Source: a virus
IMG/VR virus record: IMGVR_UViG_3300020187_000267
Location: 1 to 21,008 of that record
Direction: 5' to 3' (one strand)
Length of the DNA stretch: 21,008 nt
Shown here: in pieces, positions 3,674-11,611 of the stretch
How the letters are laid out: each line of letters starts with the position of its first letter
Position numbering within the stretch: the first letter of the stretch is position 1
Translations under genes and position numbers: made by a program
The notes under the pieces: generated by a model
What the model was told of the DNA's origin: nothing
What the model saw: only the letters and a program-made list of their open reading frames with translations
Databases searched by the model: none

Positions 3674-5250
3674 TTCTACGAGATTACCAAACGGAAGCAA
3701 TCGAGTCAGTAAATCTTTTCTTAAAGCACAAGAAAGGTAACCCTGCCATAGTACTTCCAACAGGATCGGGTAAATCTTTGGTCATGGCAAAAATGATTTC
3801 TAACTGGGTTAAGATTTCGCCAAAGATTAGAGTGATGGTATTAGCACATAGAAAAGAGCTAGTCGAGCAAAACTACTTAGAATTAAAAAAGTTAGACTCA
3901 GTGCCTGATATTGGAATTTATTCTGCTGGACTAAATAAAAGGCAAACGCAATCCTTGATTACATTCGCAAGTATTGATAGCGTTTACAATAAGTGCAATA
4001 GCTTTCAAGTTCAAACTGTTTTTATTATAGACGAAGCACATCGTATCCCAGTTCGTGGCGAGGGGAAATATAGGAAATTAATCGTTGACATGACGCTACG
4101 CAATCCAAACCTAAAGGTAATTGGATTGACAGCAACACCGTACCGACTTGGAACAGGTAACATTTGCCACCAAGACTATATTTTAAATGAAGTATGCTAC
4201 GAAGCACGAATTAAAAAGCTAATCGATGATGGATACCTTTGCCCAGTTCGAACCATTGAAGGAGATCACAGTGAGTTAAATCTAGATGGTGTTCAAAAAA
4301 TAGCAGGGGAATATAATTCAAAGCAACTATCGGATAGAGTCAATCGGGAGGAAGTGGTTAACCAAGCAGTGGAACACCTAGTGCTCTCTTGTAACAGATA
4401 CGAGCGAAAAAGCGTAATTGTCTTTTGCATTGATGTAGACCATTGCAAGAGTATTTCAACGAAAATGGAGTCAATGGGTATTAAAGCACCCTATATCATT
4501 GGTAAGACCAAAGCAAGTGAAAGAACGTCTCTATTGAAACAGTTTAAGGATGGTAAGGTGCAGTTTCTCCTAAGTGTCGATTGCTTTTTCGAAGGTTTTA
4601 ATGCACCCGGTGTCGACTGCGTTGCAATGCTAAGACCAACTCAGTCTAAAGGCTTATGGGTACAAGCTATTGGACGAGGCTTACGAACCAAGTCGGGCAA
4701 AAGCTATTGCTTGATCTTGGACTACGGAGATAATATACAAAGACATGGGCCAATTGACATGGATCAAATTGGTGACATCGTCTTGGAAGAGTGTAAGCAA
4801 TGCAGTAACCAATTTAATAAAAGGCTAGGCCAATGTCCTTCGTGTGGTTGGGAGATTCCCAAGCAAGAGCGTAAGCAAATGGAACGACTGGAAGAAGTGG
4901 AGAAAAAGATTCACAACGCATTTGCGGCTAAAGGGGAATTATTTGCTTCGCAAAAAGATGTAAAGGTAACCTCCTACTCCGTCCGAGTGCATCGCAAGTT
5001 GGGCAAACCAGATAGCGTTAGAATCGACTTCCTCTGCGGGTTAACTACCATTAGCCATTGGGTTACAGTTGAGCATAAAGGATACGCAAGAGACAAAGCT
5101 AAGCATTGGCTAAACTCTATGTCTTTACCATTTTACGACTCTTGTACGGAGATGATAAAAGATGAACGATTTCAATCGAAACTAAGTACTATTAAAACAC
5201 TTTCTATTAACACATCTGGGAAATATCCCGAAATTATATCATATAACTAA
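3667..5250 (+). CDS. Superfamily 2 DEAH helicase with C-terminal zinc ribbon
   Basis: ATP-dependent DNA or RNA translocase of the ResIII/SF2 type, probably used in phage replication or recombination. Motifs in order: Q-motif-like RDYQ (5-8), Walker A LPTGSGKS (30-37), AHRKEL (60-65), DEAH (122-125), GLTATP (153-158), and motif VI QAIGRGLR (333-340). A four-cysteine zinc ribbon follows (Cys376, Cys379, Cys390, Cys393; CPSCGW). The last 130 residues form an unassigned tail. At 527 aa it matches common phage helicases of this type. It overlaps the preceding gene by 7 bases and is followed two bases later by a small gene and then the RuvC-like nuclease. This arrangement suggests branched-DNA processing. 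All core motifs are intact. Confidence 0.9.
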   Translation: MLVLRDYQTEAIESVNLFLKHKKGNPAIVLPTGSGKSLVMAKMISNWVKISPKIRVMVLAHRKELVEQNYLELKKLDSVPDIGIYSAGLNKRQTQSLITFASIDSVYNKCNSFQVQTVFIIDEAHRIPVRGEGKYRKLIVDMTLRNPNLKVIGLTATPYRLGTGNICHQDYILNEVCYEARIKKLIDDGYLCPVRTIEGDHSELNLDGVQKIAGEYNSKQLSDRVNREEVVNQAVEHLVLSCNRYERKSVIVFCIDVDHCKSISTKMESMGIKAPYIIGKTKASERTSLLKQFKDGKVQFLLSVDCFFEGFNAPGVDCVAMLRPTQSKGLWVQAIGRGLRTKSGKSYCLILDYGDNIQRHGPIDMDQIGDIVLEECKQCSNQFNKRLGQCPSCGWEIPKQERKQMERLEEVEKKIHNAFAAKGELFASQKDVKVTSYSVRVHRKLGKPDSVRIDFLCGLTTISHWVTVEHKGYARDKAKHWLNSMSLPFYDSCTEMIKDERFQSKLSTIKTLSINTSGKYPEIISYN

Positions 5251-5251
5251 A

Positions 5252-5470
5252 ATGCTTAAATCAGATCTAAAAGACGCAAACGCAATGGCAATTATTTGCA
5301 ACAACCTGTTCGAAAAGCTCCATTACGCAAAAGAACAAATTTTAAGAATGGATGTAAAGGAAAACTCTCCATCCAATCGCGTTCACTACAAAGCAACTAT
5401 TCAATGGATTGACTCTGCTAAGAGCGAATTGACATGGGAAAAAGAACCTAAGGATGGGGTTAAAAAATGA
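5252..5470 (+). CDS. Small hypothetical helical protein, 72 aa
   Basis: Unrecognised. It appears all-helical with charged faces (NNLFEKLHYAKEQILRMD; IQWIDSAKSELTWEKE). It sits in the one-base gap after the helicase stop and overlaps the resolvase start by four bases (ATGA). A small partner or loading factor for the helicase or nuclease is plausible from position only. Confidence 0.6.
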   Translation: MLKSDLKDANAMAIICNNLFEKLHYAKEQILRMDVKENSPSNRVHYKATIQWIDSAKSELTWEKEPKDGVKK

Positions 5471-5967
5471 AAAGATTTGTTGGAATCGACTGCGGGAAAA
5501 CAGGTGGAATAGTTTCAATTGGCCACGACCAAGAAATTGACCTTAAAGTAATAATGCCGACAATGCCCGATGGGAAAAAGAAGAAGATTAATATAAAAGC
5601 ATTGAATGACATTATTATTTTTTTAAACGTATTGGAGCCAATCTTTATAGTAGAAGATCCAGGTGGACATGCACCGAGTGCAGCAGGGCTAAGGTCAATG
5701 ACCTATTCCTTTGCCGTTGTAGAAGCATTACTTGTCGTTAACCAATGTAGCTACATTAATGTGACCGCACGTAAATGGCAAAAGGAATTCTGGACCAAGC
5801 CGAAGGAACTAAAAGGCCAAAAGTGGAATACGAAAGAACAAGCTTTAAACAGCGCCAATGAAATATGGCCAAACACCGACTGGAGACAAAACGATCGTTG
5901 TCGAGTTGCACATGATGGGATCGTAGATGCGGCTTTGATTGGGATGTATGGATTTAGACAAAAATAA
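5467..5967 (+). CDS. RuvC-like Holliday junction resolvase / RNase H-fold nuclease
   Basis: Predicted metal-dependent endonuclease that resolves four-way or branched DNA during replication and before packaging. The RNase H-fold acidic residues are visible in the usual order: Asp8 in GIDCGKTGG, Glu63 in IVEDPGG, and Asp150 with Asp154 in the C-terminal HDGIVDAALIG. The length (166 aa) is close to RuvC. The basic middle (ARKWQKEFWTKPKELKGQKWNTK) would contact DNA. It overlaps the preceding small gene by four bases. All predicted catalytic acids are present. Confidence 0.85.
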   Translation: MKRFVGIDCGKTGGIVSIGHDQEIDLKVIMPTMPDGKKKKINIKALNDIIIFLNVLEPIFIVEDPGGHAPSAAGLRSMTYSFAVVEALLVVNQCSYINVTARKWQKEFWTKPKELKGQKWNTKEQALNSANEIWPNTDWRQNDRCRVAHDGIVDAALIGMYGFRQK

Positions 5968-8315: not shown

Positions 8316-8711
8316 ATGAGTAATGACCTATTTAAAGACTTAAAGGAAATGCACGCTAAGTATGGCGTCCATGAACGTATTAAGACAATGTCGAAGGATC
8401 AATTATCCAACTTCATGATGTTTCGATACAACTGCTTGGAGGAGGAAATGGAGGAACTAAACTATGCTCTTAAAACACGTGACAAAACTGAAATCGTTGA
8501 TGCACTGATTGACCTCACTGTCTTTGCCATTGGAACCTTAGATGCTTTTCTAATTGACGGTCAGTTAGCCTGGGACGAAGTATTAAAGGCAAACATGAAT
8601 AAGACCCCAGGCATTAAACCGGAACGACCCAATCAGTTTGGCTTTCCCGACCTAATTAAGCCAAGCGATTGGATTGCTCCTACTCACAAGAATAACACCG
8701 GATTACTATGA
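8316..8711 (+). CDS. MazG-like all-alpha NTP pyrophosphohydrolase
   Basis: Predicted to hydrolyse a (deoxy)nucleoside triphosphate to monophosphate and pyrophosphate. The metal-binding pattern is clear: a first helix with repeated acids (LEEEMEEL, residues 41-48), then EIVDALIDLTVFAIGT with Glu59, Asp62 and Asp66, and the tail AWDEVLKANMNK typical of phage members. The length of 131 aa suits a single-domain dimer. T4 gp56 (dCTPase/dUTPase) does this kind of work in a phage with modified cytosine, and the genes downstream make a similar role likely here: removing dCTP, or making dCMP for the hydroxymethylase-like enzyme. Substrate choice cannot be read from the sequence. It overlaps the next gene by ATGA. 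Confidence 0.8.
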   Translation: MSNDLFKDLKEMHAKYGVHERIKTMSKDQLSNFMMFRYNCLEEEMEELNYALKTRDKTEIVDALIDLTVFAIGTLDAFLIDGQLAWDEVLKANMNKTPGIKPERPNQFGFPDLIKPSDWIAPTHKNNTGLL

Positions 8712-9067
8712 GCCCAGAAGAAGTACTAGAAAAAGCGATGCAAGTGCGCATTGCTAAGTCCCAAGACTACCAAAGCTTGTGCTCTACAGTAACACAAGCG
8801 CAATACTATCCTCGCGGGATCGAAACGATCTACGATATAATGTGGGGAAAGATGCTAAGGATTAAATCCATAATGGAAGCTACCAAAGCTACCAACGGAG
8901 TTAGCCATCCACAGTATGAATCCATACAAGATTCTGCATTGGATTTAATTAATTATGCATCTTTCCTATCTGCCTACATGGACCACGATATCGAAGGCCA
9001 AAGTATCTACCAAGATGTATTTAATCGAAACCTAGAAGGTCCTTCTATTCTATGCGAAAGCGAGTAA
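8708..9067 (+). CDS. DUF1599 / nucleotide-modification-associated (Nmad1)-like protein
   Basis: The pattern fits the DUF1599 family, named nucleotide-modification-associated domain 1 because it recurs in phage base-modification cassettes: a KSQDY block (residues 17-21), a central helix MLRIKSIMEA, and a late helix with DSALDLINYASFLSAYM. The acids in the last helix resemble the MazG-like all-alpha NTP-PPase arrangement, so it may act on a nucleotide, but I know of no proven reaction. At 119 aa it is a single domain. It overlaps the MazG-like gene by four bases and the hydroxymethylase-like gene by 16, which places it firmly in the cassette. Confidence 0.6.
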   Translation: MSPEEVLEKAMQVRIAKSQDYQSLCSTVTQAQYYPRGIETIYDIMWGKMLRIKSIMEATKATNGVSHPQYESIQDSALDLINYASFLSAYMDHDIEGQSIYQDVFNRNLEGPSILCESE

Positions 9068-9807
9068 GCTTAAAAGGTGCATTGTGGATGCTAAGAAAGC
9101 ATTTGCATGATCATGGTGATGCTGTGACAACCTCAACTTGGCAATCAATGACCAAGCCTCCAGAGTTTCTAGAGGTTCTGCATGCCCATTTTGTGGCACA
9201 AATGGAGCAGACGGAAGCAAAGGCAAGCGATGCGGTGGGTGCTAATCAACCATGGGCAAAGGTTCATTTCGGAGAACGGGTTGGTGGGAAACCACTTAAC
9301 CCGCCTCCTTCGCATTCGATGTGGAACAAGGACACCGAGCTACATCTACTTGCAGATGGAGCATTCTCCCATAGTTACCCAGAGAGAATGTGGTGCGATC
9401 GTCACATGTCCGGCATTAGGTTTAAGTTTGGCAACTTATCAGATGCAGTGCAGTTACTTAAGAAAGACCATACCACTCGACAGTGCTATGTTCCAATGTG
9501 GTTCCCGGAAGATATATCAGCAGCTAACCTAGGCGAGCGAGTACCTTGCTCCTTTGGTTGGCATTTTTTGTATCGGAATGGAAAGCTCCATTGCTCGTAC
9601 CACATGAGAGCATGTGACGCAGTTAGACACTTGCACAATGATTTGTATTTTGCAAACTGCTTAGCGATATGGATGAACGAAGCATGTGGGTTGGATGCAG
9701 AAATTGGAGATTTACACTTCACCTCTACATCCCTACATTGCTTTTTAAATGAGAAGTATTCAATCAATAAACTAATAAGAAAAGAAAAATGTGTGGATTC
9801 GTTATAA
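9052..9807 (+). CDS. Deoxycytidylate hydroxymethylase-like (thymidylate synthase fold)
   Basis: Predicted to add a one-carbon group from methylene-tetrahydrofolate to C5 of dCMP. The fold marks align without gaps to E. coli ThyA: TRQCYVPMW with Arg143, VPCSFG with catalytic Cys166, GKLHCSYHMRACD, then HND with Asp197, and TSTSLHCF. Thymidylate synthase has Asn177 where this protein has Asp197, exactly 31 residues after the catalytic Cys. T4 gp42 has Asp179, 31 after Cys148, and shares the NVGSLH-like ending (here STSLH) and similar length (246 versus 251 aa). From T4 and engineered thymidylate synthases, Asp here favours cytosine over uracil. Methyl versus hydroxymethyl product is not decided by these residues. 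The gene overlaps both neighbours by about 16-19 bases. Confidence 0.75.
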   Translation: MRKRVSLKGALWMLRKHLHDHGDAVTTSTWQSMTKPPEFLEVLHAHFVAQMEQTEAKASDAVGANQPWAKVHFGERVGGKPLNPPPSHSMWNKDTELHLLADGAFSHSYPERMWCDRHMSGIRFKFGNLSDAVQLLKKDHTTRQCYVPMWFPEDISAANLGERVPCSFGWHFLYRNGKLHCSYHMRACDAVRHLHNDLYFANCLAIWMNEACGLDAEIGDLHFTSTSLHCFLNEKYSINKLIRKEKCVDSL

Positions 9808-11105
9808 CAGAAGACAAAAAAAATATAGACCTATACATGTCTATGATTTCTCACAGGGGATTAGATGGATACCAATCCACCTCCACTGTTGGTAAGTTTG
9901 GACTTGCCCATTGTGCATTACCGTTTGTTACTTTAGACAAAAAGATTGCTACCCAACCGGTCAACGGTAGGTCAGTCTTCGTCGGTGAGATATTTAACTT
10001 CTCCCAACTAACAAATAGAGGCTTACCTACTGACGCTCACTTTATGGATCATGTTTTCCATAAAGAGCCAGGCCTACTTAAGAACTCTCACTTATGGGAT
10101 GGGTTTTGGTCTTACGGTACTGTTATTAAGAACAAGCTAATCTTAGTTGCTGACTACCTTAGCCAAAAGCCAATCTACTATCGAACAGATATGAAAGCTG
10201 CTGCTAGTGAGATTACTCCGCTTTTGGCAATGAAGCACTCGAAGCCAGACGAAGTGTTTCTTTCTAACGTTCGTAAATGGGGCTATTCTCCAGATGGTCG
10301 AACACCTTGGGAAAACATTAAGCAACTCGAAGCTGGATGCATGTATGTCAATGGTAAGATAAAGAGGTACTTTAATTGGGACCACGTTCAAACTGGCGAT
10401 TTGTTCCAAATGATGGAATCTGCTGTTGCCTCTCGATTGCAAGGTCAACATGAGGTTGCTTTGCTGCTATCCGGTGGCTTAGACTCTTCCATTGTCTACG
10501 GTTTGGCCAAGAAAGTAATAGATACGATTACCGTTATCCATGTCGAGAACGAAGAAGAGGAATGGGCAAAGCTAGTTCACAACTACCAAGGCGCACAAGA
10601 TCCATTAGAATCTATTTCTATTAATAAGGTAACTGACCAAGAAGCATTAGCTGCACACCAAACACCTGTAGACCTTGGCTCAGTAAAGCCACAGTTAGCA
10701 ATGGCCAAGCGAATTAAAGAGCTTGGACTACATTGTGTACTAACTGGAGACGGTGCAGACGAACTATTCGGAGGATACCGTCGGGCAAGCACCTACGATA
10801 GCCAACAAAGTGACATCTTTAGCGAACTACCTTACTACCATTGCCCACGCTTAGATCGGACAATGATGAAGCACACCATAGAGCTAAGATCCCCATTCAT
10901 GCGGTCAGATATCGTTAAGTATGCACTAAACATACCATACTCGGAACGTAATGGGACCAAGAAGGTGCTAATGGATACGTTCGAATCTATTGTTCCGCAT
11001 GAAGTACTACACCGCGACAAGCGTGCTCTTAAGACCAAAGAGATCTACGAACAACCACTTACACAACGACTACACAACGATTCAATATGGAAAATGATGA
11101 ATTAA
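9789..11105 (+). CDS. Asparagine-synthetase-like class II amidotransferase with altered glutaminase site
   Basis: Two-domain AsnB-family enzyme. The N-terminal class II glutaminase domain begins MCGF, so Cys2 becomes the catalytic N-terminal residue and fixes the start. HRGLD (22-26) and Asp82 match AsnB, but the Arg49 position is Ala43 (GLAHCALP) and the oxyanion-hole Asn74 position is Val65 (VGEIFN). The C-terminal ATP-pyrophosphatase domain keeps the PP-loop SGGLDS (228-233), TGDGADELFGGY (319-330) and LRSPFMRSDIVKYAL. Such enzymes activate a carboxylate as an adenylate and attack it with ammonia or another amine. It is shorter than AsnB (438 versus about 554 aa). It overlaps the hydroxymethylase-like and deaminase genes by 19 bases each. 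Either a host-metabolism gene or a base-tailoring enzyme; context favours the latter. Confidence 0.8.
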   Translation: MCGFVITEDKKNIDLYMSMISHRGLDGYQSTSTVGKFGLAHCALPFVTLDKKIATQPVNGRSVFVGEIFNFSQLTNRGLPTDAHFMDHVFHKEPGLLKNSHLWDGFWSYGTVIKNKLILVADYLSQKPIYYRTDMKAAASEITPLLAMKHSKPDEVFLSNVRKWGYSPDGRTPWENIKQLEAGCMYVNGKIKRYFNWDHVQTGDLFQMMESAVASRLQGQHEVALLLSGGLDSSIVYGLAKKVIDTITVIHVENEEEEWAKLVHNYQGAQDPLESISINKVTDQEALAAHQTPVDLGSVKPQLAMAKRIKELGLHCVLTGDGADELFGGYRRASTYDSQQSDIFSELPYYHCPRLDRTMMKHTIELRSPFMRSDIVKYALNIPYSERNGTKKVLMDTFESIVPHEVLHRDKRALKTKEIYEQPLTQRLHNDSIWKMMN

Positions 11106-11611
11106 ACAAGTGGCACGAACGCTACTTAGGGTTATGTGACTCCATTTCATCGTGGTCGAAAGATCCATCTAGTCAAATTGGATGTGTAATCGTTGGTCGC
11201 AATGGTCAAATCTTATCACAAGGCTACAATGGATTTGCACGCGGGATTAAAGATACGATTGAAAGATACGATGTAAGAAGCCTAAAGTACCGATTAGTGG
11301 TCCATGCAGAGGCAAATGCTATCTACAATGCATCTAGGATTGGTGTTTCCCTAGAAGGATCTACTATGTACGTTAAAGGACTACCGGTTTGTAACGAATG
11401 CGCTAAAGCAGTGATCCAATCGGGCATTTCTACCCTTATCTGCTCATTTGATCACGTTAAACCACAATGGATAGAGTCCTGTGGGAATGCAATCGACATG
11501 CTAGAAGAAGCTGGTGTGTCTTACTACCACTTGGGCCCTCTCCCTAGCAAGCTGAGCAAGCTGAGCAAGCTGAGCATAGGTCTGTTATCACGGGAATATA
11601 GAGATGTATAA
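11087..11611 (+). CDS. Deoxycytidylate (dCMP) deaminase
   Basis: Converts dCMP to dUMP. The zinc site is complete: His73 and catalytic Glu75 in VVHAEANAI, and Cys102 and Cys105 in PVCNECA. Family blocks before it (SKDPSSQIGCVIVGRNGQILSQGYNG) and after it (WIESCGNAIDMLEEAGVSY) also fit. The start overlaps the AsnB-like gene by 19 bases. The C-terminus is odd: LPSKLSKLSKLSIG repeats Ser-Lys-Leu because the DNA there (11545-11577) is a 9-bp iteron array forming one arm of a large inverted repeat. The tail is probably tolerated rather than functional. In this cassette it competes with the hydroxymethylase-like enzyme for dCMP, or supplies dUMP for thymidine synthesis elsewhere. Confidence 0.85.
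   Translation: MENDELNKWHERYLGLCDSISSWSKDPSSQIGCVIVGRNGQILSQGYNGFARGIKDTIERYDVRSLKYRLVVHAEANAIYNASRIGVSLEGSTMYVKGLPVCNECAKAVIQSGISTLICSFDHVKPQWIESCGNAIDMLEEAGVSYYHLGPLPSKLSKLSKLSIGLLSREYRDV

Follow-up and report, generated by a model that had tools for sequence, protein, structure and literature searches.

A five-gene operon in the virus record IMGVR_UViG_3300020187_000267 is predicted to supply the phage genome with a hypermodified cytosine, a reading to which we assign a probability of about 0.55. The genes are located at positions 8,316 to 11,611 of the window, by which the whole 21,008 nt stretch of analysed DNA is meant, and successive reading frames overlap by 4, 16, 19 and 19 nt. In order, they encode a MazG-like protein, a DUF1599-like protein, a thymidylate synthase (TS)-fold protein, an asparagine synthetase-like (AsnS-like) protein and a dCMP deaminase (Table 1).

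Table 1. Genes of the operon and key codons of the TS-fold protein, with positions in the window.
Feature	Position	Strand	Predicted role or equivalent	Evidence
MazG-like / PRA-PH nucleotide pyrophosphohydrolase	8316..8711	+	candidate dCTP-clearing	PF01503 35.4 bits; phrog_671 E 2.2e-20; homologue in 26/46 loci
DUF1599-like (Nucleotide modification associated domain 1), 119 aa	8708..9067	+		PF07659 20.5 bits, under cut-off 25; homologue in 23/46 cassette loci
TS-fold protein, phrog_160 type, 251 aa	9052..9807	+	predicted C5 modification of dCMP	PF00303, phrog_160, AF2 model
His72 codon	9265..9267	+	probable replacement of catalytic Glu (ThyA Glu58)	alignment via L473-L475; family-invariant His
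Cys166 codon	9547..9549	+	TS-superfamily nucleophile (ThyA Cys146)	invariant in 75/75
Asp189 codon	9616..9618	+	ThyA Asp169; Asn in FAD hydroxylase AfhB	Asp in 75/75
Asp197 codon	9640..9642	+	cytosine-selecting (T4 gp42 Asp179, ThyA Asn177)	Asp in 75/75; Asn in ThyA, SPO1, ViI
AsnS-like protein, 438 aa	9789..11105	+	Ntn glutaminase-like and PP-loop ATPase domains	PF00733 128.8 bits; AF2 pTM 0.89; Z 35.8 to AS-B 1ct9; TS-linked in all testable relatives
dCMP deaminase, 174 aa	11087..11611	+	third conserved cassette gene	HAE and CxxC zinc motifs; PF00383 70.1 bits; phrog_174 E 3.6e-43

Fold and active-site residues of the TS-fold protein

The sequence-only reading had placed a TS-fold enzyme at this locus, an assignment borne out by a Pfam Thymidylat_synt match (PF00303; Bitscore: 36.7; cut-off: 24.3), a match to the PHROGs thymidylate synthase family phrog_160 (e-value: 8.8e-29) and an AlphaFold2 model (mean pLDDT: 78.9; pTM: 0.81) which aligns with many chains of solved TS-superfamily structures at Z-scores of 16 to 18, including those of AfhB (9iqu; Z: 17.9), MilA (5jnh; Z: 16.7) and a thymidylate synthase (3bnz; Z: 16.6). 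The structure of T4 gp42 is not among the best 50 matches listed in this comparison, an absence that excludes nothing. Cys166 and Asp197 are 31 residues apart, as first counted, and align without gaps to Cys146 and Asn177 of ThyA and to Cys148 and Asp179 of T4 gp42. Viral relatives were collected from IMG/VR, giving 75 distinct sequences (56-70% identity) for which columns are numbered after ThyA. All 75 have Cys at position 146, Ser or Thr at 147 and Asp at both 169 and 177, and the Asp at 177 is also found in more distant phage isolates of the family. At the level of sequence conservation, the 75 relatives and the distant isolates together rule out chance as the source of Asp197. The residues at positions 147 and 177 are Thr and Asp in T4 gp42, His and Asn in ThyA, and Asn and Asn in the dUMP hydroxymethylases of SPO1 and ViI, and the original designation of Asp197 as the dCMP-specific Asp, as in T4 gp42, is upheld by this distribution.

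In all 75 relatives Gly173 is replaced by His and Tyr209 by Phe. The latter substitution affects the ribose-contacting Tyr of gp42, ThyA and MilA, such that the SLH block of the AsnS-linked family reads SLHCF; its partner, His207 of ThyA, is present as His229. This block had been taken to support the likeness to gp42, with which it does agree, but the SPO1 gp29 dUMP hydroxymethylase also has SLHVY, so that the block does not discriminate dCMP from dUMP enzymes and was rejected as a gp42 marker. The region of the catalytic Glu58 was not reliably aligned by hhalign (A1 versus A3), and intermediate sequences were used in its place. These intermediates (L473-L475) align well and carry Glu where the family has His72, while the seven-residue spacing from His72 to a Gly (Gly79) is kept and an invariant Glu75 is located close by. 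On this alignment, His72 probably replaces the catalytic Glu58.

The motif R-S/A-C-D is present in 75/75 relatives, and the AfhB-type RSQN motif, with Asn at position 169, is absent. The protein stops approximately 20 residues past the SLH block and is without a ThyA-like C-terminal segment. Furthermore, ThyX is encoded on 12/15 of the larger T4-like relative contigs, suggesting that dTMP synthesis in these phages does not depend on a ThyA-fold protein. On the combined evidence of Asp197, the missing C-terminal segment and the ThyX of the relatives, the TS-fold protein is not a canonical, dTMP-making thymidylate synthase. A scan of genome contigs found no bacterial or prophage copies of its gene.

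Ala187 (window positions 9610-9612) places Ala at ThyA position 167 (RACD) in the window protein, as is also the case in L045, while nearly all other relatives have Ser (RSCD). In MilA, a Ser-to-Ala change at this position plus an Arg-to-Lys change shifts the preference from dCMP to CMP (PMC5175136). The Arg that changes to Lys in MilA is kept in the window protein, despite Ala187.

Linkage of the TS-fold and AsnS-like genes across viruses

The genomic neighbourhood was compared in three overlapping sets of loci. Among those found with the TS profile (best 80 of 112 matches), an AsnS-like gene is located 3′ of the TS gene in all 43 with enough contig, mostly directly adjacent and within approximately 2.3 kb. 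Among those found with the AsnS profile (best 80 of 296 matches), a TS gene is located upstream in 70/70 testable loci, the other ten being cut at the start of the AsnS gene. A DNA pattern within the AsnS gene retrieved the third set, 67 AsnS loci, of which 57 have the TS gene and seven are cut at the contig edge, i.e. 57/60 of those not edge-cut; in the remaining three, divergent loci, a TS with Asp177 is encoded at another place in the same record. The dCMP deaminase gene usually joins the TS and AsnS genes as the third gene of the cassette. In L382, a divergent AsnS gene (4271-5898; Bitscore: 358) has a DUF1599-like gene directly 5′ and a TS gene approximately 1.5-2 kb downstream in the record. 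A literature search found no paper on AsnS with a phage TS, and no biochemistry or DNA analysis for any cassette member.

The relatives are T4-like, with genes for polymerase, primase, UvsX and helicase around the cassette (clusters 10, 6, 3 and 4, those of 3, 4 and 10 being identified by reading their sequences together with the T4 gene order). The backbone of the window phage, shared with L064 (95% identity), includes a GpA-type terminase and a primase-helicase of a different kind. The cassette is not tied to one phage type, occurring in T4-like phages as well as in the window phage with its GpA-type terminase. TS and AsnS divergences are correlated (Mantel r: 0.70; 0/500 permutations), with r values of 0.70-0.88 among the TS, AsnS and deaminase distances. 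TS distances also correlate with those of the polymerase and other core genes, and as such the co-inheritance of TS and AsnS is partly phylogenetic. The AsnS-linked TS proteins are monophyletic in the tree (98/100), and a single clade of this kind suggests that the partnership may have arisen once.

Additional genes can be observed around the cassette. A small nucleotidyltransferase (RfaE-like, CTP_transf_like) is encoded before the TS gene in many T4-like relatives (25/46 loci; e.g. L022 7547-8122), while others have the DUF1599 gene there. A phage ribosomal protein S21 gene is found just 3′ of the cassette in L043 (2702-2980) and nine other loci. The T4-like relatives also encode DAHP/KDO8P-synthase-like, cytidylyltransferase and phosphomannomutase-like proteins (L022 3619-4434, L032 4795-5493, L025 7136-7903), which possibly constitute a KDO or sugar-nucleotide pathway.

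Sister TS proteins of the same phrog_160 family are encoded by Gordonia, Mycobacterium (Muddy), Streptomyces (KimJongPhill), Pseudomonas (Almagne) and Yersinia phages. They share 31-40% identity over most of their length with the AsnS-linked proteins, as well as the Cys, Ser/Thr, Asp169, Asp177 and Phe209 residues and the His that probably occupies position 58, and their genes mostly adjoin those for nucleotide pyrophosphohydrolase and dCMP deaminase. An AsnS-like gene is, however, present in 0/80 of these viral loci, which mostly have a phrog_13667-like gene upstream instead, or a phrog_34294-like one. In such AsnS-lacking phages a protein of approximately 260-350 aa (phrog_13667 in several isolates) is encoded directly upstream of the TS gene (L049 4030-4923; L056 4222-5010; 49/80 of the loci L288-L367), and may be an alternative modifying partner of the phrog_160 TS. 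Its WGSCM motif suggested a second TS-fold paralogue, a candidate dropped at an hhalign probability of 0.2.

The AsnS-like protein and comparable systems

The AsnS-like neighbour, which was absent from the sequence-only reading, gave an AlphaFold2 model (pLDDT: 87.9; pTM: 0.89) matching both domains of E. coli asparagine synthetase B (AS-B; 1ct9; Z: 35.8 over 401 residues). As in AS-B, the 82 distinct AsnS-like sequences keep the PP-loop SGGLDS, the GxGxDE motif (as GDGADE), Lys449 and Cys1, along with Gly75, Glu76 and Asp98. They differ from AS-B in the replacement of Arg49 by Ser or Ala and the loss of Asn74 (82/82), in the replacement of Glu348 by Asp (81/81), in a conserved H-Q-S/T-P-V-D-L-G-S block in place of the segment at Thr322, and in a shorter C-terminus. 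Among class II amidotransferases, Arg49 is the residue that binds the carboxylate of glutamine and Asn74 the one that provides the oxyanion hole. With the PP-loop site kept and these two residues lost, the ATP-dependent half of the protein looks active and the donor half changed. The bacterial relatives are distant AsnB-like proteins, none above approximately 32% identity and mostly below 30%, and a bacterial source of the phage AsnS was rejected on these grounds. An AsnS-like gene is also located within the 7-deazaguanine cluster (queC, tgt, queE, GTP cyclohydrolase) of Achromobacter phage Motura (L051 8001-9281), hinting that AsnS enzymes are repeatedly used in DNA base modification.

The cassette resembles the 5hmC carbamoyltransferase pathway identified by MetaGPA, in which a TS with Asp177 is clustered with PRA-PH and dCMP deaminase domains (PMC8670742). 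The second enzyme of that pathway is, however, a carbamoyltransferase, whereas that of the cassette is AsnS-like, and the main text of PMC8670742 makes no mention of Asn_synthase. No carbamoyltransferase gene was found among the scanned proteins of the window, a 21 kb fragment. An AsnS-superfamily enzyme likewise hypermodifies cytosine in the CmoA/CmoX/CmoY 5-carboxymethylcytosine system, where the phage-encoded AsnS homologue CmoY links glycine to 5-carboxymethylcytosine through an amide (PMC12783734). The handle of that system is, by contrast, installed on DNA by the C5-methyltransferase homologue CmoX, and the CmoX-linked ligases include a cluster that bears a glutaminase and is described as uncharacterised (PMC12783734). 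No PF00145 match, and hence no C5-methyltransferase or CmoX homologue, was found in the 15 larger cassette contigs or among the scanned window proteins, all of them from fragments, and the lack of a CmoX-type gene in the 15 relatives suggests that the cassette is probably not a Cmo system. Direct kinship of the cassette AsnS to CmoY was also rejected, as the AsnS-family profile does not find the CmoY of S-B43, a short frame of approximately 271 aa.

Substrate, chemistry and proposed pathway

Metagenome-wide, the positions most associated with modified cytosine in MetaGPA are 177 and 147, with Asp177 going with modified contigs (PMC8670742), and in the MilA structure paper Asp marks enzymes using cytosine nucleotides (PMC5175136). 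As Asp177 and Ser/Thr147 are invariant in the family and coincide with these positions and this marker, the prediction that the TS-fold enzyme acts on dCMP (or CMP) is well supported. The retained Asp189 corresponds to ThyA Asp169, a folate contact that is Asn in AfhB; folate-type chemistry is therefore favoured, with a flavin-dependent reaction as its main rival, and a hydroxymethyl product is moderately supported. T4 gp42, the dCMP hydroxymethylase, shares the TS fold, the Cys nucleophile, Asp179 and the Asp at ThyA 169, but has Glu60 and Tyr218 where the AsnS-linked family has probably His and Phe, respectively. Together with His for Gly173, these substitutions suggest that the catalytic chemistry may differ from that of gp42. 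In the tree, the AsnS-linked family lies far from gp42, across a deep split with very long branches, and kinship of the TS-fold protein to gp42 is not evident from this placement. The alignment and tree with gp42, ThyA and the dUMP hydroxymethylases, proposed at the outset as a check, hence set Asp197 on gp42 Asp179 while separating the two proteins. Of the one-carbon transfer to C5 of dCMP originally predicted, the substrate stands, on Asp177 and Ser/Thr147; the one-carbon step and 5-hydroxymethylcytosine are not established, given the probable His for Glu58, AfhB as the closest solved structure by fold and the lack of clear gp42 kinship.

The foremost alternative, which we consider unlikely, is a TS-fold protein that works like AfhB of phage HY126, a flavin-dependent dCMP 5-hydroxylase, and makes 5-hydroxy-dCMP with no one-carbon unit involved, after which the AsnS-like enzyme would decorate the hydroxyl or the ring. 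The phage dCMP hydroxylase AfhB, whose crystal structures include dCMP and FAD complexes (9iqu, 9iqc), is both the top structural match (Z: 17.9, versus 16.7 for MilA) and the best PDB profile match (e-value: 3.9e-5), it has the same fold, the Asp at 177, a Thr after the Cys (position 147) and the Phe at 209, and the tree places the AsnS-linked family on its side of the deepest split. Moreover, 5-hydroxy-dCMP synthases belong to the TS superfamily, and Mosigviruses make 5-hydroxy-dCMP with one (PMC13390438). AfhB and its Rhizobium relative have, however, Asn at position 169 and Phe at 58, whereas the AsnS-linked family has Asp at the former (75/75) and probably His at the latter; the Z-score lead of approximately 1 is nearly a tie, and the branches joined in the tree are long. 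A dCMP methylase like that of phage XP12 would yield 5-methylcytosine and leave the AsnS-like gene to an unrelated metabolism. A single Asn-to-Asp change does move canonical thymidylate synthase towards dCMP, giving 5-methyl-dCMP, according to work cited in PMC8670742, but the missing ThyA C-terminal segment and an AsnS gene that is never lost from the TS neighbourhood make this very unlikely. Least probable of all, and scarcely to be expected, is an enzyme that uses dUMP despite the Asp, with a thymine derivative as the modified base. The reshaped pocket (probably His for Glu58, His for Gly173, Phe for Tyr209) and the dUMP-making dCMP deaminase in the operon would fit such an enzyme, but the SPO1 and ViI dUMP hydroxymethylases combine Asn177 with Asn147 where the AsnS-linked family has Asp with Ser/Thr. 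T4 likewise combines a dCMP enzyme with a dCMP deaminase.

The AsnS-like gene could also be an ordinary auxiliary metabolic gene making asparagine which merely adjoins a cytosine hydroxymethylase gene. Its product matches AS-B in fold (Z: 35.8) and ATP site and scores 169 bits against NCBIfam asn_synth_AEB, although this is below the cut-off of 267, and asparagine synthase/asnB is also mentioned in passages of the literature on viral auxiliary metabolic genes. Asparagine synthesis is nevertheless quite unlikely in view of the lost Arg49 and Asn74, the Glu348-to-Asp change, the replaced Thr322 segment, the obligate linkage to TS across unrelated phages and the lack of any bacterial relative above approximately 32% identity.

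In the preferred reading, that of cytosine hypermodification, the MazG-like and DUF1599-like proteins would clear unmodified nucleotides, while the TS-fold enzyme would bind dCMP via Asp197, attack C6 with Cys166 and install a substituent at C5, most likely a hydroxymethyl group from methylene-tetrahydrofolate. The AsnS-like enzyme would use ATP to adenylate a carboxylate or carbonyl, forming a C-N bond that decorates the modified base on the nucleotide or on DNA, a reaction class suggested by its conserved PP-loop site. The dCMP deaminase would supply dUMP for thymidine, which in the T4-like relatives would itself be made by the separate ThyX. Both the further AsnS-catalysed C-N bond on cytosine and the incorporation of the modified base into virion DNA are moderately supported. 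The "further modified base" of the sequence-only reading is its best-supported part, through the obligate AsnS-like neighbour, while support for its 5-hydroxymethylcytosine is partial. The hmC glucosyltransferase gene of T4 is located between gene 42 and uvsX; T4-like cassette phages have the AsnS and dCMP deaminase genes in the same interval, with the AsnS-like enzyme instead of a glucosyltransferase. Several points count against the pathway. The Arg and Asn of the standard glutaminase pocket are absent from the AsnS-like protein, no T4-type dNMP kinase (PF21448) was found in the 15 relatives, and we know of no carboxylate-bearing cytosine from a TS-type reaction. More tentatively, and at somewhat less than even odds, we propose an undescribed cytosine hypermodification in which a third type of TS-fold enzyme (His for Glu58, His for Gly173 and Phe for Tyr209) adds a new C5 group to dCMP, on which an AsnS-family enzyme whose amide-donor site has changed forms a C-N bond, the module passing intact between T4-like phages and tailed phages unrelated to them.

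By modifying their DNA, phages defeat restriction and CRISPR, and these modifications are a source of enzymes for sequencing and labelling. The pairing of a dCMP-type TS with an AsnS-like enzyme in a conserved cassette predicts a modification that has apparently not been looked for in environmental T4-like phages, and offers a small, testable set of genes. By the same token, some of the viral asparagine-synthase genes regarded as auxiliary metabolic genes may in fact serve DNA modification. The occurrence of a TS-like enzyme re-tuned to cytosine beside an AsnS-like enzyme suggests an undescribed chemical disguise of the cytosines in phage DNA.
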